The position numbers and the translations under genes were made by a program. A stretch of DNA of 64,000 nucleotides from Williamsia phyllosphaerae. Its GTDB lineage: Bacteria > Actinomycetota > Actinomycetes > Mycobacteriales > Mycobacteriaceae. The stretch is from NCBI RefSeq assembly GCF_014635305.1, contig NZ_BMCS01000001.1, forward strand, positions 1,488,001 to 1,552,000, given 5' to 3'. Positions 43,775 to 52,805 of the stretch are shown in pieces (position 1 is the first letter of the stretch; every line of letters begins with the position of its first letter). Below the pieces are notes generated by a model. That model saw only the letters and a list, made by a program, of their open reading frames with translations, was not told the origin of the DNA and did not search any database.

Positions 43775-44212
43775 TTAGGTGAGGCGAGACGCCCGCGGAT
43801 CGATCAGCTTCGATCGGTCGAGACCGGCCACCAGTAGATCGATCCGAGCAGCCACCGCGCGGTCGGTGAGTGTGGTGCCCGCTTCGCCGGTTCGAGCATC
43901 GTTACAAAGAGTTTGCTGAGGGGCCAGCAAGTCGTCGAAGGCGACGAGGAGACCCGAGGCCGCGTGGGGTACGTCCCCCCAACCCGACGACACACAGTGC
44001 ATGAGCCAGTCGAGGACTGCGGATGAGGATGTGCAACCCAGCAGCGGTACGGCGTAGCGCTCATCTCTGGTCCGCAGGACCAACTCGTAGGAGGACGGGT
44101 CTAGCCTCCACGGTCCCCACCGCCGCGCGTCGTCGGCAATGAACATGAATGGCGTAAAAATTTCAGTGGGCATGGGCATCCTCGGAATCGGTCCGTGAGA
44201 CTGAATGGTCAT
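43775..44212 (-). CDS. Hypothetical protein coupled to the PaaK-like gene
   Basis: 145 residues with no signal peptide or clear membrane helix. Notable segments are FTPFMFIADDARRWGPWRLD near the N-terminus and LLVAGLDRSKLIDPRASRL at the end. I do not recognise the family. ATG 44212 overlaps the stop of the adenylating-enzyme gene by four bases (ATGA); a further ATG six bases upstream is possible. The tight coupling suggests a stoichiometric partner. Higher A/T at third codon positions than in flanking core genes. Confidence 0.65.
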   Translation of the reverse strand: MTIQSHGPIPRMPMPTEIFTPFMFIADDARRWGPWRLDPSSYELVLRTRDERYAVPLLGCTSSSAVLDWLMHCVSSGWGDVPHAASGLLVAFDDLLAPQQTLCNDARTGEAGTTLTDRAVAARIDLLVAGLDRSKLIDPRASRLT

Positions 44213-45636
44213 TCGCATTGCTGTGAAACAGCTCTCGACTCCGTCCGCCGGGTATCGACTACGCGTACGAATTTTCCCCCCTGAGACCTCTGAGGGAGTT
44301 CGTCGGATATCTCGACGACGACGTGCGACAGACCGGAGTCTGCGAGCAGCTGGTCCAAACGGTGGCGCGCCTCTCTGCCTGAGGCCGCGCGGTCGGTCCC
44401 GGGTCGGATTGAGAACCTGACGGTGAGATGGTCGTCACCGTCGCGAACGATTTGAGACTGGGCGAACCCGTCGACGGCATCGAGCACCACCGACACGACC
44501 GTGGGCGAAATTCCGTGGCGTCTACCGGCGACATCGAAGTGCACAATCTCGCCAGAACGTCCGAGGACGTCGAACGCAGGCAGAGGGTTTCCGCATTCAC
44601 ATCGGTCCGGACGCATGAGAACGGAGTCGCCCAGGTCGTAGCGGATGATCGGTTGGACCCGGCGAAACAGGTTGGTGAGCAGAACCGAGTGCGACGGGTG
44701 TCCGCGCGGCGTCGGTTCTCCGGTCATCTCGATGGGCTCGAGGATCACCCAATCCGCGTTCAGGTGTTGCCATCCGAGATCGCACCGGGTCGCGATGAAC
44801 ATGCATTCATTGGCGACGTAGCGGTCGATGACCACAGCGCGTGGCCACGCGTGCCGAATGGTCTGCAGCGCAGTCGGGGTCATGGTCTCGGAGAACGGCA
44901 GCAAGACCGCGGGATCAATACGGAGGTTGCCTTCCAACTGCTCCTGCGCAAGCAGCACCAGCACCGACGAGTACGAGCTCACACTCGCGGGATCCATGGC
45001 CGTCAGCTGGGCGGAGAGGCTCGGGACCGACTCCAGAACAGAGAAGAATCGGACGCGGCGATCCGGTTTTGCGTTGTCTCGACTGTTGTAGAAAGCGGCA
45101 CCCATGTGGTGGCCCTCGAGTTTCAAGATGGCCGCGGTTCGACCGCGCTTGCGCGTGAACTGGGCGGCCGCGCGAGGCCCGAAGGCAGATAGCCGGGATC
45201 CGAGCGCGCGCAACACCTCTAGCGCGGAGTCCTCGGTGACGAAGCAGCCTCGTATTCCACTTGTTCCCGACGACTCGCTGTAGAGGTAGTTACCCAGGAA
45301 ACGACGGCCGACGTTGGCGTCATCATTCGCGAACTCGTCGACCGCGCGCGTGGTGATCCTGCGGTCAGACGCCCACCGGTCGAACTGATCCATCAACATT
45401 GCCTTGCCGGTCACCGGCAGATCGTGGAGGCCGGCCGAGTCCATGGCAATGCCCTGGTACAGGTCGGCGAAAAGCGGTGACGTCGCGCCAACGTGACGCA
45501 CCAGCGAAATCAGACGGCGGTCGGCCCTCGACCGACAGTGCTGCTCGTTGCGCGCCGCCCGCCGAGCGTCACGCTTCAGCCACCTCAGCCCTCTGTCGAT
45601 ATCGGCCGGGCCCTCCGACTCGTTTTGCCCTCGCAT
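44209..45636 (-). CDS. PaaK/CapK-like adenylate-forming enzyme
   Basis: 475 residues, similar in layout to phenylacetate-CoA ligase and CapK proteins that activate carboxylates as adenylates. The AMP-binding loop is YSESSGTSGIRG. Later motifs are QPIIRYDLGDSVLM and the Cys-rich RCECGNPLPAFDVLGRSGEI expected in this branch. The substrate is not predictable and CoA transfer is not proven. ATG 45636 is chosen by length; its ribosome binding site is weak. It is divergent from a WS/DGAT gene and co-oriented with the unknown protein and GT2. Confidence 0.78.
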   Translation of the reverse strand: MRGQNESEGPADIDRGLRWLKRDARRAARNEQHCRSRADRRLISLVRHVGATSPLFADLYQGIAMDSAGLHDLPVTGKAMLMDQFDRWASDRRITTRAVDEFANDDANVGRRFLGNYLYSESSGTSGIRGCFVTEDSALEVLRALGSRLSAFGPRAAAQFTRKRGRTAAILKLEGHHMGAAFYNSRDNAKPDRRVRFFSVLESVPSLSAQLTAMDPASVSSYSSVLVLLAQEQLEGNLRIDPAVLLPFSETMTPTALQTIRHAWPRAVVIDRYVANECMFIATRCDLGWQHLNADWVILEPIEMTGEPTPRGHPSHSVLLTNLFRRVQPIIRYDLGDSVLMRPDRCECGNPLPAFDVLGRSGEIVHFDVAGRRHGISPTVVSVVLDAVDGFAQSQIVRDGDDHLTVRFSIRPGTDRAASGREARHRLDQLLADSGLSHVVVEISDELPQRSQGGKFVRVVDTRRTESRAVSQQCE

Positions 45637-45879
45637 GTCCACAGCATTGCAGGGTTTGATGTCACAACTGTTGCTATCGCGAGTTGGCGGCATTTTTGGC
45701 GTCGATACTGGTGGGCGCCCGGTCAACATGATGTGGCAAGGTAATCAAAAGCGGCGAAGCGGACACCCAGAGTGTGCTCGTATCCACGTCGATGACACCG
45801 ATGCTGCGCTATGGTTCGGCCGTCAGGTTGTTTTGAACCGTTCGGGGCCGGTTCTCTGCGGGCGGGATTGGACCGTGTC

Positions 45880-47376
45880 ATGAGACAGCTATCAGCTCGC
45901 GATGCCGCGTATCTGTACCTCGATGATGGGCACACCTCTGCCACAGTGTTGTCGTGCTGGGTGCTGTCCACCGCCGACGGCAGCCCCAGCACCATCGAGC
46001 CGAACGACATCGTCGAACGACTGACCGATTTGGTCAACGCTGACGCCTTGTTCGCCAGCCGCTTACGTCGTCTGCCGCTCGATATAGGACTGCCCTACTG
46101 GCAGTACGACCCGACCTTTCGCGTAGCGGAGCATCTCGACATACACCGCAACGCCACCACGTGGACCGAAGCCCAAGATCTGCTCGCGCACATCGCGGGC
46201 GACCCGCTGGACCTGACTCGGCCGTTGTGGAAAGCGCACATCATCACCGATGTCAGACACATGCCGGACTGCCCCGGGGTCGCGACCATCGTGGCGATCA
46301 TGTTCCACCACGCCGCGTTCGACGGCGTCACCTGGGCTCGGCTCACCCGCGCAATCCTCGCTGATCATTCCCACCTCGTGGAGGAACCAGCGAATCCCGC
46401 GCGGTCAGAATCGTCCTTCCCAACCACACCACGACTTGTCGCGTTAGAGATCCTCCGACTACCCCGCAATGTGTTTCGATTTGCGGCGGCGCTGATCGGG
46501 TTGGTCGGAAAGCCCCAACACACCTCTTCATCAGGGCAGGACCCAAACCCAACCGAGACAACCGGAGCGCCCGCGTCATGGCCGGCTACCCGTTTCAATT
46601 CCGCCGTGCGCGGTGCCCGCCGCGTCGACTACTGCATCCTGAATTTGACTGACGTCAAGATGATCAAGACGATCGCTGACGGCGCAACCGTCAACGACGT
46701 CATGATCTCGATAGTCGGGCGCGCCCTCCACCTGTATCTGGAGAAGTGTGGTGAACCTCCCCAGCGCTCCCTGTCTGCATTGGTCCCCATGTCGACCCGG
46801 ACCGGTGACGGAGGAACGGCAAACCAGTTCGTGCCGTTGGTTGTTGACATGCACAGCGCCGAGGCGGATGTTGCGACGCGCCTCGCGGCGATCGTGGGGT
46901 CGTCGACCGCCGCCAAATCATCGATCCGCTCGGCGTCGCAGAAGCCTGGGTTGGTGCAGGCCGTTCCCGCGCCGCTGCTGCGGCTCATCGGCTCGGTCAG
47001 CCGGGCGATGTCGGCGCGGACCAGTTCGCCGACAACCGCCTTCGCGAACACTGTGATCGCCAACGTCCACACGAAAACCCCGATCGAGACCATGTTCGGC
47101 CGTACGATTTGCGCGGCATTCGGCATTCAGACACTGGGACCACCGTCAACGCTGGCGCACTCCATCAGCTCCATCGACGGTCACCTCGCCATATCGGTCA
47201 CAGTGGACGGCGCGGTGATGCCAGATACTGCAGAGTACGTGCGCTTGATCCGCATCTCGTTCGATGAACACCTCATTGGTGCGCGGCGCACCGTCAGCGC
47301 ACCCCACGATCCGGAACACCACCTGTCCAGGGCGGTACATGGTGAGCACCAGATCGCGGGACCGGAGGACGCATGA
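45880..47376 (+). CDS. WS/DGAT-family acyltransferase
   Basis: 498-residue wax ester synthase/diacylglycerol acyltransferase-like enzyme. The PLDxxRPLW-like segment PLDLTRPLW (109-117) and the intact active-site motif HHAAFDG (143-149) are present, and the C-terminal DUF1298 region has FANTVIANVHTKTPIETMFG. It would esterify an acyl-CoA to an alcohol, diacylglycerol or another hydroxyl acceptor at the membrane. ATG 45880 begins the family-typical RQLSARDAAYLYL. Its stop overlaps a 51-codon gene. Divergent from the PaaK-like gene across 243 bases. Confidence 0.85.
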   Translation: MRQLSARDAAYLYLDDGHTSATVLSCWVLSTADGSPSTIEPNDIVERLTDLVNADALFASRLRRLPLDIGLPYWQYDPTFRVAEHLDIHRNATTWTEAQDLLAHIAGDPLDLTRPLWKAHIITDVRHMPDCPGVATIVAIMFHHAAFDGVTWARLTRAILADHSHLVEEPANPARSESSFPTTPRLVALEILRLPRNVFRFAAALIGLVGKPQHTSSSGQDPNPTETTGAPASWPATRFNSAVRGARRVDYCILNLTDVKMIKTIADGATVNDVMISIVGRALHLYLEKCGEPPQRSLSALVPMSTRTGDGGTANQFVPLVVDMHSAEADVATRLAAIVGSSTAAKSSIRSASQKPGLVQAVPAPLLRLIGSVSRAMSARTSSPTTAFANTVIANVHTKTPIETMFGRTICAAFGIQTLGPPSTLAHSISSIDGHLAISVTVDGAVMPDTAEYVRLIRISFDEHLIGARRTVSAPHDPEHHLSRAVHGEHQIAGPEDA

Positions 47377-47874: not shown

Positions 47875-48312
47875 ATGTCAGAGCTTCTGTACGCCGAGGA
47901 CCTGGTGGTCCGGTCTGAATGGGACCTGGGCAGTTGCGTCGTCACCGAGGCCGAGATCATCGAGTTCGCGCGGCAGTGGGACCCGCAGGGCTTCCACGTC
48001 GACCCCGACATCGCCGCCGCCGGCTATTTCGGCGGCATCATCGCCAGCGGCATCCACACCATGGCCATGTTCCAACGACTCGCGGTGCCCGCAGTGTTCG
48101 ACCGATGGGCCACGATCGCCGGTCGGGGCATGCGCGACGTCCGACTGCTGCGCCCCGTCCGCCCGGGCACCACGTTGACCGGCACGATGATCGTGGACGT
48201 CGTCGACCTGCACCGCCCCGACCGCGCCCGCGTCGAGATGACCGGACGCCTGGTCGAAGCCGGCGGGACCGTGCTCGAGATGACGATGGAGATCTCCGCG
48301 CGCCGACGCTGA
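47875..48312 (+). CDS. MaoC-like (R)-hydratase domain protein
   Basis: 145-residue hot-dog-fold protein of the MaoC dehydratase family, which hydrates enoyl thioesters. The hydratase-2 motif region is FARQWDPQGFHVDPDIAAAGYFGGIIASGIHT (about 31-62), with the Asp and His of the catalytic dyad present. A second conserved stretch MRDVRLLRPVRPGTTLTG follows. ATG 47875 gives a full-length single-domain protein. Role likely in fatty-acid or polyketide-like metabolism. Confidence 0.85.
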   Translation: MSELLYAEDLVVRSEWDLGSCVVTEAEIIEFARQWDPQGFHVDPDIAAAGYFGGIIASGIHTMAMFQRLAVPAVFDRWATIAGRGMRDVRLLRPVRPGTTLTGTMIVDVVDLHRPDRARVEMTGRLVEAGGTVLEMTMEISARRR

Positions 48313-48333: not shown

Positions 48334-49446
48334 TCAGCGCAGCGTGCGTGCGAACAGGGCCTCGAGCTCGGTGAAGCTGCGTTCGGCCCCGGCCTCCTGG
48401 TACATCGAGGTGTCGGCCATCGAGTAGCCATGCGGCGCATCCGGATACACCTCGTTCTTCGCGGTCAGACCGGCAGCGTCCAGGGCGGCGCCCAGCGTCT
48501 GCACCGCCTCGGGCGGCATCGAGCCGTCGTTGTCGGCGTGGCCGTAGACGAACTCGGCGCGCGCGGTGGCGACGGACAGATGCGGGCTGTCGGGCTGGTC
48601 GGTGACCAGGCCTCCGCCGTGGAATCCGGCCGCCGCGACGACGTTGTCGGGGAAGGTTCCCGCATAGCGCGTCACCAACCGCGCACCCATGCAGTAGCCG
48701 ACGGTCCCGACGCGGTCGCCGACGACGGCTTCCAGCCCGAGCAGCGTCTGGTGGTAGACGGCGGTGTCGGCGGTCGACTTGTCCGTCGTGAGGTTGCCCA
48801 TCCGAGGTCCGATTCCCTCGAAGAAACTCTCCCGCTCACCGGGTTGCCGCAGATCGCCCTTCGGCATCAGTTCCTCGGCGGTGCCGTCGCGGTAGAACAG
48901 GTTGGGCGTGAGCACGACATATCCCCAGGATGCGATGCGCTCGGCCATGGTGATCAGCTCCGGCCGGAGACCGATGGCGTCCATGAACAGCAGCACACCG
49001 GGTCCCGAACCTGCAGGGGGAGTGGCGACGTGGGCTTCGACGGTTCCGCCGGGGGCATCAAAGGTGATGAGATCCATCACCTCAGCGTACGGATCGTTGA
49101 CCACCGGCTGATCCTTCGTGAGGTGCAGCAGCCAATCGCGACCGGTGTTGATCAGGGCATAACGGACGACACCCCGCTCGCCGTGCAGCTCGAACACCAT
49201 CCGTCGATCGGTGCTGTCGATGAGGTCCCACCAACCGTGGTCGGCAATGCTCTTGTGCTCGTCGGTGTAGCCGGCGTGGTCCATGTCGTGATCTCCGACC
49301 GCGACGGCGAGCCGATCGTGGCGCACGTCCGTCGGCATCCCCTTCGGTACCGCCCACGACCGGAGGACGCCGTCCTGTTCAAGCCGCAGGTCGAAATGCG
49401 GAGTCGGCTTCCGGTGGTCGTGAAGAACGAATACGGGGTTCACCAT
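48334..49446 (-). CDS. LigD-type 3'-phosphoesterase domain fused to a dienelactone hydrolase
   Basis: 370 residues in one uninterrupted frame. Residues 1-112 match the LigD phosphoesterase domain: HDHRKPTPHFDLRLE keeps the metal/catalytic set H11, H17, D19, R21, then SWAVPKGMP, then H53 in VGDHDMDH (the usual Tyr four residues later is His57). The canonical EGEYG region is shortened. Residues 125-370 are an alpha/beta hydrolase of the dienelactone hydrolase family with nucleophile C252 (GYCMGAR), D305 (GHADND) and H339 (DAPHGY). ATG 49446 shares its A with the stop of the MFS gene upstream. Whether both domains are active is unknown. Confidence 0.85.
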   Translation of the reverse strand: MVNPVFVLHDHRKPTPHFDLRLEQDGVLRSWAVPKGMPTDVRHDRLAVAVGDHDMDHAGYTDEHKSIADHGWWDLIDSTDRRMVFELHGERGVVRYALINTGRDWLLHLTKDQPVVNDPYAEVMDLITFDAPGGTVEAHVATPPAGSGPGVLLFMDAIGLRPELITMAERIASWGYVVLTPNLFYRDGTAEELMPKGDLRQPGERESFFEGIGPRMGNLTTDKSTADTAVYHQTLLGLEAVVGDRVGTVGYCMGARLVTRYAGTFPDNVVAAAGFHGGGLVTDQPDSPHLSVATARAEFVYGHADNDGSMPPEAVQTLGAALDAAGLTAKNEVYPDAPHGYSMADTSMYQEAGAERSFTELEALFARTLR

Positions 49447-51056
49447 CACCTTTCTTCGGTCGCTCGAGGCGCTGGGCGCAGCGCGAAGAACCGATTCTCC
49501 TCGGTTCGTCCGTCGACGGTCAGGGCCACCGCCGCGGTGATCGACTCGTGGTCGTAGCCAGTCCATCGTTCGGTGTGCTGACGGCGGTATTCCGACCACG
49601 ACCCGATGATGAACTGCTCGACGACGAGCTCGGTGTCGTCGCCGCTGCGATACAGACGCCAGCAACTACCGCCGGTCCGGCGTCGTCCACGCGCGACGCG
49701 CGACATCGCCCGCGTGAAGTCGTCGAGAGAGTCCGGTCGGACGCGATACCGCACCGTCACCAACACCGGTCCGTCGTCGGGTTGGGGCTCGAAGACGAGG
49801 GTGGGCACCGGCCACGTCATCGCCACCTCGCGATCCAACTTGCCGGTGCTCTCGCGTAACGGGATGTGTCGGACGCTCAGCGCGACCACCCCGAGCACGG
49901 CGCCGGCGACCAGCAGCGCGGTCCGGTAGCCGACGGCGGTGGCGACCGCACCCCACACGTAGGACCCGACGGCCTGTGACCCCATGAAGACCAAGAGGTA
50001 GGCGCCCATCGCCCGGGCCCGCACCCAGGCGGGCAGCGACAGTTGGATCCCGGAGTTGACGGTGGTGAGCGCGGCGATCCACGCGGCGCCGGCGGCGAGC
50101 AGCGCCGGGATCGCCAACCACAGCGGAGCGAATCCGAGGGCCAGGGTGCCGACACCGAAAACGGCTGCACCACCGCCCAACACGATCGACGCCGACACCG
50201 AGCGGCGCAGGCGCGGGACCAGCACGACGCCGAGCAGTGCGCCGAGTCCGAGGACACCGAGGATGCCGCCGTAGCCGGCCGACCCCAGCCCGAGATGCCG
50301 CGACGACGCGACCGGCAGCAACGCCCAGAGCGCGGACGCCGGGAAGGCGAACATGGCCGCCCTCAGCATCAGTCGACGGATCGTCGGCGCGGCGAGGACG
50401 TACCGGACGCCGACCACGAGGGACGTGCCGATGCGTTCGCGCTCGATGACTCGGGTGTCCGGCGGGCGCCGCCAGATCGCCAGTGCCCACACCACCGCCA
50501 GATAGCTCACCGCGTTGAAGGCGAACACCGCGCCCGGTCCCGCGGCCGCGACGACCACACCGGCCAGTGCGGGACCCACCGCGCGAGCACCGTTGACGGT
50601 GACGCTGCCGAGCGCCGACGCCGACGGGATCTGTTCGCGTGGAACCAGTTCGGGTTGGATGGCCTGCCACGCCGGAGACGTCAACGCCGACCCGGCACCG
50701 AGCAGGAAGGTGGTGACCAGCAGCAATGACGCGGTGAGCAGGCCGGTCCACGCGAGCACGGCCATGACCGCTCCCACCACTCCCGAGTACACCGAGAGAG
50801 CGATGAGCATGCGGCGGCGGTCGAGGAGATCGGCCAGCACCCCGGCGAGCAGCGAGAACAGAATGGTCGGGGCGAGGCTCGCGGTCTGCACGAGTGCGAT
50901 GACGGTCGGGCTGCTGCCGCGTTCGACGAGGAACCACTGCGCCCCCACCGATTCCATCCACAGGCCGATGTTGGAGATCATCTGCGCCAGGAAGAGGTTG
51001 CGGTAGACCGTGTTGCGCAGCGGAGCCCATGCGGACCCCTCGGTCGTGGCGGTCAT
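49446..51056 (-). CDS. MFS exporter (MFS_3) with C-terminal ABM-like domain
   Basis: 536 residues. Residues 1-410 form a 12-helix major facilitator of the MFS_3/enterobactin-exporter type (starts LRNTVYRNLFLAQMISNIGLWME; loop LADLLDRRRML). Residues about 420-536 are a soluble ferredoxin-like domain related to antibiotic-biosynthesis monooxygenases (VLVTVRYRVRPDSLDDFTRAM), a known appendage in this family. Start and stop overlap the neighbours on both sides, so NmrA-like protein, exporter and the fused hydrolase are one operon. Confidence 0.88.
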   Translation of the reverse strand: MTATTEGSAWAPLRNTVYRNLFLAQMISNIGLWMESVGAQWFLVERGSSPTVIALVQTASLAPTILFSLLAGVLADLLDRRRMLIALSVYSGVVGAVMAVLAWTGLLTASLLLVTTFLLGAGSALTSPAWQAIQPELVPREQIPSASALGSVTVNGARAVGPALAGVVVAAAGPGAVFAFNAVSYLAVVWALAIWRRPPDTRVIERERIGTSLVVGVRYVLAAPTIRRLMLRAAMFAFPASALWALLPVASSRHLGLGSAGYGGILGVLGLGALLGVVLVPRLRRSVSASIVLGGGAAVFGVGTLALGFAPLWLAIPALLAAGAAWIAALTTVNSGIQLSLPAWVRARAMGAYLLVFMGSQAVGSYVWGAVATAVGYRTALLVAGAVLGVVALSVRHIPLRESTGKLDREVAMTWPVPTLVFEPQPDDGPVLVTVRYRVRPDSLDDFTRAMSRVARGRRRTGGSCWRLYRSGDDTELVVEQFIIGSWSEYRRQHTERWTGYDHESITAAVALTVDGRTEENRFFALRPAPRATEER

Positions 51057-51892
51057 CGCGTGCTGATGACGCCGTCAAGCCAATCTCCGAAGGTCTGCCA
51101 GCCGATACCGGGGTGCGTGGCGTGCAGATTATTGATGTCGGCGGAGTACCCGTGGCCGCCCAGGTAGGTGAACATCGCCCGCATGTCGTCGGAGCCCAGT
51201 TCGGCCGGGTCGGTCGCGACCGCGGTGACCTCGCGATCCAGGACTGCGCCGAGCGTTGCCGCCATCTCGTCCGGTGTCGGGTTGTCCGAGGCGATGTCGA
51301 TGCGCAGGCCGTCGAAGACCGACGGATCGGTCAGAACCGCGGCGGCGAACCGGCCGAGGTCGCGACGCGAGAGTTGCTGTAGGGGTGTGGTCGTCGGGAT
51401 GGGGAGCTCGAGCAGGCCGGTTTCCCGGATCTCGTCGAGGCTGCCTACGATGTTGTCGTAGAAGTAGGTGGGGCCGATGATGGTGTGCGGGCGCCCGGAC
51501 TCGCGCAGCGCCGATTCGACAACGGCTTTGCTGTCGAAGTGCGGGACACCGGTGCGGCGATCGGCGTCCGATACCGACGAGAAGACCAGATGCGCAACGT
51601 CGACGGATGCAGCCAGGATCGACATGCCCTGATCGATCTCGGCCTGTGGGCCGCTCTCGAACGGGGTGGTGACCGCGAAGACGGTGTCGGTGTCGGCGAA
51701 CGCCGCGCGCAGGGCCGCCTGATCCAGGAGATCGGCCTCGACCACCTCGACGCCTGCCGCCGAGAGTGCCTGCGCCCGAGCGGAGGACGCGTGACGGGTG
51801 ACGGCCCGCACCGTCTCGCCCAACTCCAGCAGGGCGGTGACGACAGCCCCGCCCTGGGCGCCGGTGGCGCCGAGAACCGTGTGGAGTGACAT
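51053..51892 (-). CDS. NmrA-like NAD(P)-binding protein
   Basis: 279-residue atypical short-chain dehydrogenase of the NmrA/HSCARG group. The cofactor motif is VLGATGAQGGAV (6-17), followed by VRAVTRHASS as expected for NADP binding. Conserved HLVFSSVSDA and HTIIGPTYFYDN follow; the YxxxK dyad is absent, consistent with redox sensing or quinone/azo reduction. First gene of the operon with the MFS exporter and fused hydrolase, preceded by a long perfect inverted repeat. Confidence 0.88.
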   Translation of the reverse strand: MSLHTVLGATGAQGGAVVTALLELGETVRAVTRHASSARAQALSAAGVEVVEADLLDQAALRAAFADTDTVFAVTTPFESGPQAEIDQGMSILAASVDVAHLVFSSVSDADRRTGVPHFDSKAVVESALRESGRPHTIIGPTYFYDNIVGSLDEIRETGLLELPIPTTTPLQQLSRRDLGRFAAAVLTDPSVFDGLRIDIASDNPTPDEMAATLGAVLDREVTAVATDPAELGSDDMRAMFTYLGGHGYSADINNLHATHPGIGWQTFGDWLDGVISTR

Positions 51893-52007: not shown

Positions 52008-52526
52008 TCAGCGGTTGCCGAGCAGGATCGGGCCGTTGCCGAGGTCGATGCACCCGCTGAAGGTTTGAAAATCGCCGGCGAACGACAGTCCGCCCGAGCA
52101 GGTGGCCGGATCCTTGCCGTTGAGGGTGACCGTCGCGCCGCGGCCCGCGATCCCGATGGCCAGGCCCGGCTTGATGCCGGTGAGCGTCGCCGACGAGCGG
52201 GGACCGACGGCGATGGCGGCGGGCGCCGAGTAGTTGGTCGCTGAGGATGTGGCCTTGCCGCCGTCGAGCCCGATTCCCAGCGAGAGTCCGTTGCGGCCGG
52301 CGTTGGCACTCGCGGCACCCTTGGTGTCACCGATCGCGGCCGAGGTGCCGGTGGCCGACGAGGTCGCCTGGCAATCGGCGCGATTGCTGGTCTGCCCCGG
52401 GAATGCCTGACACACGTCAGGTGCGGCGGATGCCGGCGCCGCCGCGAATGCGGTGCCCCCGGCGGCGAGCAGGGTGAAGGCCGCGATGCCCGCGGCCCGT
52501 CGCGCAGAACTGATGGTGATCGACAT
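52008..52526 (-). CDS. Small secreted protein of unknown function
   Basis: 172 residues. A Sec signal peptide covers about 1-35 (ARRAAGIAAFTLLAAGGTAFA, cleavage after ASA). The mature protein is Ser/Ala/Thr/Gly-rich with four Cys (DVCQ, DCQA, ATCSG, SGCID), probably two disulfides, and a glycine-rich GLSLGIGLDGG core suggestive of beta structure. I do not recognise the family. The start at 52526 follows the cluster GGGAGGACATCTC, which contains a good ribosome binding site. Confidence 0.78.
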   Translation of the reverse strand: MSITISSARRAAGIAAFTLLAAGGTAFAAAPASAAPDVCQAFPGQTSNRADCQATSSATGTSAAIGDTKGAASANAGRNGLSLGIGLDGGKATSSATNYSAPAAIAVGPRSSATLTGIKPGLAIGIAGRGATVTLNGKDPATCSGGLSFAGDFQTFSGCIDLGNGPILLGNR

Positions 52527-52686
52527 GAGATGTCCTCCCGACATTCCGTGCACCGCCCCGACGGCGATGTCTGATTTCGACGATGCAGTCGGAAGGTCGA
52601 GCACCGGAGCCCGCGAGGTCACCTGTGGATAACGAAAAGTCACGGAACGATAACGGCGTTCGACGCGACGTTGGGTGAGACCACAA

Positions 52687-52711
52687 ATGCCCGCCCGGTC
52701 GGGGCGGGCAT
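52687..52711 (-). terminator. Terminator after tRNA-Ser(GGA)
   Basis: Perfect 10-base inverted repeat ATGCCCGCCC / GGGCGGGCAT with a 5-base loop, five bases after the tRNA 3' end on the minus strand and followed there by TTTGT. Confidence 0.75.
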
Positions 52712-52716
52712 CTCGA

Positions 52717-52805
52717 TGGCGGAGGATAGGGGATTCGAACCCCTGAGGGCTATTAACCCAACCCGCGTTCCAGGCGAGCGCCATAGGCCACTAGGCGAAT
52801 CCTCC
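52717..52805 (-). tRNA. tRNA-Ser (anticodon GGA)
   Basis: Class II tRNA on the minus strand. Acceptor GGAGGAT pairs with ATCCTCC, with G and encoded CCA at the 3' end. The anticodon loop CTGGAAC gives GGA, reading UCC and UCU. T arm GGGGTTCGAATCCCC and a long variable arm are present. Confidence 0.95.

Follow-up and report, generated by a model that had tools for sequence, protein, structure and literature searches.

What would a phosphoesterase domain of the end-healing type known from LigD be doing in one polypeptide with a dienelactone hydrolase? The question is raised by a 370-residue open reading frame on the reverse strand (49446..48334; ATG start at 49446, stop codon at 48334..48336) of the window, by which is meant the whole 64,000-nucleotide stretch analysed here. 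The window belongs to the 4.8 Mb genome of Williamsia phyllosphaerae, whose genus relatives are the Williamsia species.

Domain organization of the fusion

Pfam matched LigD_N at residues 9–99 (E 3.8e-17, 62.8 bits, gathering threshold 31.1) and dienelactone hydrolase (DLH) at residues 137–367 (E 5.1e-33, 114.9 bits, cut-off 21), in agreement with the original prediction that a LigD_N domain and a complete DLH are joined in one frame. The N-terminal LigD-phosphoesterase-like (PE) domain was delimited as residues 1–114 (49105..49446, reverse strand) from the Pfam match, the AlphaFold model and the ends of standalone relatives. It is followed by the linker VVNDPYAEV (residues 115–123; 49078..49104, reverse strand), a low-confidence hinge in the model, and by the C-terminal DLH domain (residues 124–370; 48337..49077, reverse strand) with its nucleophile C252, D307 and H339. 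M124 coincides with the start of the standalone DLH orthologues of Actinomycetes. As the domains are joined without an intervening stop, translation from the PE start must continue into the DLH; if M124 also serves as an internal start, free DLH would be made as well.

The fusion is real. The same architecture was sought in other genomes and found at full length in W. maris DSM 44693, with 93% amino acid identity and 87–91% nucleotide identity, and with the linker GISDPYAVV of the same nine-residue length. A join through a missing stop in this one genome had been considered as an objection. An error of sequencing or assembly that deleted a stop codon between two genes would be compatible with a Williamsia MAG (SupBloom) in which the halves are separate open reading frames. 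The W. maris assembly, however, is independent and shows the halves in one frame with a linker just as long, and in the MAG the halves are parted by a 1.7-kb gene pair, more than a one-base difference. The probability of such an artefact is therefore practically nil, and it was ruled out on the strength of the corresponding fusion in W. maris.

The PE-DLH fusion is a very narrowly distributed and previously unreported combination of known domains. That no protein of this architecture has been described, as first supposed, agrees with a literature search in which no paper was found to treat LigD together with dienelactone hydrolase; we know of no publication linking the two. A reading as a defence system was dropped, since neither the fusion nor the adjoining MFS protein matched any anti-phage model in PADLOC.

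Predicted structure

The AlphaFold model of the fusion has an overall pLDDT of 95, and confidence dips only around residues 111–122, to about 68 in the block 111–120 and to below 50 at linker positions 117–119. The model thus shows two confidently predicted domains with a flexible stretch of about 10 residues between them. The N-domain predicted alone (pLDDT 96) superposes on the LigD phosphoesterase 3n9b with a TM score of 0.90 and an rmsd of 1.6 Å, and on 3p4h and 3p43 with a TM score of 0.86. All seven significant PDB matches of this domain are LigD-type PEs (among 3p4h, 3n9b, 3p43, 3n9d, 5dmp and 2lj6), so that model and matches together uphold the phosphoesterase beta-barrel fold expected for it. 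For the C-domain, DLH structures top the PDB matches returned by Foldseek (TMt 0.82–0.86).

Active site of the PE domain

The putative metal and phosphate site has its core in H11, H17, D19 and R21 (49384..49416, reverse strand), as judged from conservation and from the roles of the LigD residues, with the subfamily-specific H9 just upstream. H53 (equivalent to LigD His84), H57 (at the position of LigD Tyr88) and Y60 follow at 49267..49290 on the same strand; the putative His-rich site comprises H9, H11, H17, D19, R21, H53, H57, Y60 and K65. The five residues named in the original prediction (H11, H17, D19, R21 and H53) all stand where it had placed them. It was equally right that the Tyr normally near H53 is replaced, the residue being H57, and that the EGEYG loop is missing, where the alignment with five LigDs has a nine-residue gap.

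In P. aeruginosa LigD, Mn is bound by His42, His48 and Asp50 and sulfate by Arg52, His84 and Tyr88; mutation of Tyr88 inactivates the enzyme, and Gln40Ala is impaired (review PMC8656161). All five of the metal and phosphate ligands comprising the Mn site, Arg52 and His84 are present in the N-domain, which keeps five of the six core catalytic residues of LigD PE. Tyr88 and Gln40 are not, and His57 and His9 are fixed in their place across the subfamily. The PE family thus retains the metal site and has His at two further positions of the LigD active site.

Against TIGR02777, the LigD-PE equivalog model with a cut-off of 144 bits, the N-domain scores 65 bits and fails, with the subfamily as a whole at 65–70 bits; the LigD PE of the same genome passes with 165 bits. 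The latter belongs to a canonical full-length LigD (G000:C1:1381862-1382248, locus L002) with standard PE residues, including the Tyr and an EGEYGG loop. Because the genome has its own canonical LigD, the orphan PE adds to a fold already represented there, and the earlier view that DNA repair is an unlikely role for the N-domain holds. The PE half might still be an auxiliary enzyme healing DNA or RNA 3' ends as in NHEJ, with the DLH as a passenger; the retained fold and core residues would fit, and the superfamily includes archaeal standalone PEs (3p4h, 3p43). Yet a canonical LigD is already at hand, the subfamily falls below the equivalog cut-off and no repair genes were found among the neighbours tested, which makes this role very unlikely.

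A standalone PE family in Actinomycetes

Searched with residues 1–114, 33 of 398 other genomes from the order gave strong matches, as did one of 395 others sampled across the phylum, and about two dozen further PE loci were found at class level by an alignment-based search. The relatives inspected are free-standing genes of about 110–140 amino acids, scattered through the Actinomycetes. Their ends fall at residue 114 or slightly beyond it, at or shortly after a K-[DE]-Q-P motif that marks the start of the Williamsia linker, and none among the loci inspected continues into a DLH. In one class-level genome (G981, locus L147) the standalone PE is broken by a TAA codon and is possibly a pseudogene; the gene is intact in related species.

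Standalone members score 65–68 bits against PF13298 (LigD_N). H9, H11, P14, H17, D19 and R21 are invariant in 55 distinct subfamily sequences; H53 and H57 occur in 54 of these and Y60 in 52, and K65, D69 and G71 are nearly invariant. The changes from Gln40 to His and from Tyr88 to His and the absence of the EGEYG loop are common to the standalone family. The proposal that the exchanged Tyr and the lost loop marked a new role gained with the fusion is consequently not supported: these are hallmarks of a standalone Actinomycete family, and the fusion was ruled out as their cause, the same features being fixed in the standalone relatives.

The PE half is likely to be a metal-dependent phosphoesterase of altered specificity, as far as the conserved residues allow this to be read. 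As a Tyr essential in LigD is replaced here, it is possible that the domain is inactive on phosphates, and it could conceivably be catalytically dead or a purely binding module, such as a sensor of 2'- or 3'-phosphates that regulates the DLH. The inactivity of LigD Tyr88 mutants (PMC8656161) and the additional replacement of Gln40 would accord with this. However, H11, H17 and D19, with R21 and H53, are essentially invariant among the 55 sequences, most of which are free-standing and have no partner to regulate, and the replacements are conserved His residues, unlike what is lost by drift. A dead or binding module is accordingly quite unlikely.

In the PE tree a long branch of modest support (0.52) separates the subfamily from LigD, and the Williamsia sequences (support 0.97) fall within a set of standalone PEs from other families. 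Searches of genomes from the same taxonomic family found no PE of this subfamily beyond this species group. From this distribution the Williamsia PE would appear to have been acquired horizontally. A phage or plasmid origin was considered and dropped: the PE has no match in 50,697 phage records, and plasmids gave no full-length match, the best of them covering the DLH only.

The DLH half

The original prediction placed a catalytic triad at C252, D305 and H339. Its Cys and His stand, being shared by all 32 of the DLH relatives aligned; the Asp is probably D307 rather than D305. In the alignment of these relatives D307 is Asp in all 32, position 305 in 24, and the conserved Asp in PDB entry 3f67 falls at D307. 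DLH occurs as a standalone gene in other Williamsia and in Marmoricola, Nocardioides, Janibacter, Tsukamurella and others.

History of the fusion in Williamsia

Both domains are under purifying selection, with dN/dS of about 0.08–0.09 for the PE and 0.075–0.095 for the DLH across three Williamsia species. In the third of these, the SupBloom MAG (locus L029), PE and DLH are separate genes and the flanking order NmrA-MFS-PE ... DLH-MaoC is unchanged. Exactly at the joint lies a divergent pair of genes (L029:3276-4931) for an MmyB-like XRE regulator and an SDR oxidoreductase. Other Williamsia have similar SDR/XRE pairs at different loci (the W. herbipolensis SDR has 77% identity), so the two genes form an independent unit.

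The PE of the MAG has no stop at the usual end; its frame extends some 20 codons further, antisense to the 3' end of the XRE gene, and DPYA linker codons persist upstream of the DLH. The antisense sequence of the PE also provides the XRE stop codon. The missing stop of the PE and the persisting linker codons favour an order in which the fusion came first and its interruption later. This order would be no more than favoured, since the three-species tree is weakly resolved and its markers conflict: the LigD tree places our species and the MAG closest (support 92), the AAT tree W. maris and the MAG (support 68), and in neither tree do the two fused species form a group without the MAG. As the halves are separated in the MAG and both intact, the PE-DLH joint is dispensable.

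Gene neighbourhood

Upstream of the fusion, on the reverse strand, lie an exporter-type MFS_3 gene (49446..51056; Pfam MFS_3, E 4.7e-139) and a gene for an NmrA-family NAD(P)-binding protein (51053..51892; Pfam NmrA, E 1.3e-45) that overlaps the MFS start. A MaoC-like dehydratase gene on the forward strand (47875..48312; Pfam MaoC, E 7e-17) is the convergent neighbour and is kept in the three-species group. The stop codon of the MFS gene overlaps the start codon of the PE (TGATG) in our genome and in the MAG, and in W. maris the two genes are about 35–40 nt apart; the order NmrA-MFS-PE-DLH is common to all three.

Beyond this group the linkage of MFS and NmrA to the PE does not recur. W. deligens and W. 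serinedens carry their MFS and DLH relatives on separate contigs, and the search of three other Williamsia species gave no close MFS. At 20 standalone PE loci (L088-L107), with flanks of up to 5 kb, homologues of DLH, MFS and NmrA are absent, nor were they found near the class-level PE loci. No recurrent neighbour of explanatory value extends beyond one genus at the 20 loci, and conserved neighbourhood was dropped as a clue to function. Within one genus PhoX, a GH30-like glycosidase and others recur beside the standalone PE; the PhoX-type alkaline phosphatase adjoins it there on the same strand (L093:3464-4963, L099:5428-6921, L107:5431-6885) and was not seen beside it in other lineages.

The suggestion that the neighbourhood points to detoxification finds no backing here: with unrelated genes beside the standalone PEs and with MFS and DLH apart in other Williamsia, an argument from the operon has little weight. 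The same evidence bears on the possibility that both domains act in one pathway or on one compound, such as a phospho-ester or a lactone, as a bifunctional enzyme that forms a detoxification unit with MFS export. The gene order shared by all three species would be expected of such a unit, as would the persistence of the fused form in two species at dS 0.35–0.54 with purifying selection on both halves. But neither the 20 standalone nor the class-level loci have the partner genes, other Williamsia have DLH and MFS far apart or no close MFS that could be found, and the halves are separate genes in the MAG, so that such a bifunctional unit is unlikely.

Other features were observed around the locus. 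Pfam MFS_3 covers residues 8–510 of the MFS protein, which has a C-terminal tail of more than 100 residues past the MFS core, the MFS_1 match ending near residue 357. A tRNA-Ser(GGA) gene (52717-52805, reverse strand) lies directly upstream of a gene for a DUF6764 secreted-type protein, and the longest open reading frame there (52008-52784) wrongly extends into the tRNA. A WS/DGAT wax ester synthase gene (45811-47376, forward strand) is followed by about 500 bp with no obvious conserved gene. A 506-residue reading frame (44209-45729, reverse strand) resembles by eye an adenylate-forming, phenylacetate-CoA ligase-like enzyme and has no Pfam match at 0.001.

Proposed function

The account that we consider probable is a two-domain chain of independent PE and DLH hydrolases, formed by loss of the stop codon of an acquired standalone PE beside a DLH gene. 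A standalone PE gene would have been acquired horizontally and placed next to the DLH gene, and loss of its stop codon would have joined it in frame to its neighbour. The two active sites would then operate independently in one chain. The PE half would probably bind a divalent metal through H11, H17 and D19 and hydrolyse a phosphate ester, with H57 (and H9) shifting the choice of substrate or the chemistry relative to LigD; the DLH half would act as a Cys-Asp-His hydrolase of a small lactone or ester. Nothing was found to connect DNA-end healing functionally with ester hydrolysis, and the join, known from a few closely related Williamsia, is rare and probably incidental, although its retention in two species leaves room for some benefit of being fused. 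A further reading, to which we assign little probability, takes the standalone sequences as an unrecognised Actinomycete-wide phosphoesterase family whose His-rich site performs a chemistry other than that of LigD, with the Williamsia fusion as a bifunctional enzyme whose substrate is a phosphorylated ester or lactone.

By itself the fusion is a lineage-specific curiosity, and the small PE family that it exposes matters more. This family is conserved across many Actinomycete families, and its remodelled LigD-type site has apparently been overlooked. Its members match only LigD models, far under the NCBIfam cut-offs, and could be mislabelled as DNA ligase fragments. They are short proteins with a confidently modelled fold and should lend themselves readily to assay. 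If active, they would be an example of the LigD end-healing fold redirected to another substrate; if inactive, the question would be why a 110-residue protein with such a site persists.

Comparison with known systems

With members of the DLH family (1din, 3f67; PF01738) the C-domain shares the alpha/beta hydrolase fold and the Cys nucleophile, Asp and His. At the classical Glu36 motif it has instead Asp156, as do 32 of 32 aligned relatives, and it differs further in carrying an N-terminal PE domain. In comparison to the LigD PE of P. aeruginosa (3n9b), the N-domain has H11, H17, D19, R21 and H53 as the counterparts of His42, His48, Asp50, Arg52 and His84, but His9, His57 and Tyr60 where LigD has Gln40, Tyr88 and a Phe, and a short D-x-x-K segment in place of the EGEYG loop. 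LigD PE is linked to the polymerase and ligase in NHEJ, whereas the subfamily is fused to DLH or free-standing. The archaeal standalone enzymes (3p4h, 3p43) likewise have a small, free-standing PE fold (TM 0.86), and 3p4h is the solved structure nearest to the N-domain by sequence (E 8e-16); these enzymes, however, retain the Tyr and an EG-x-YGAG loop, and the N-domain has neither.
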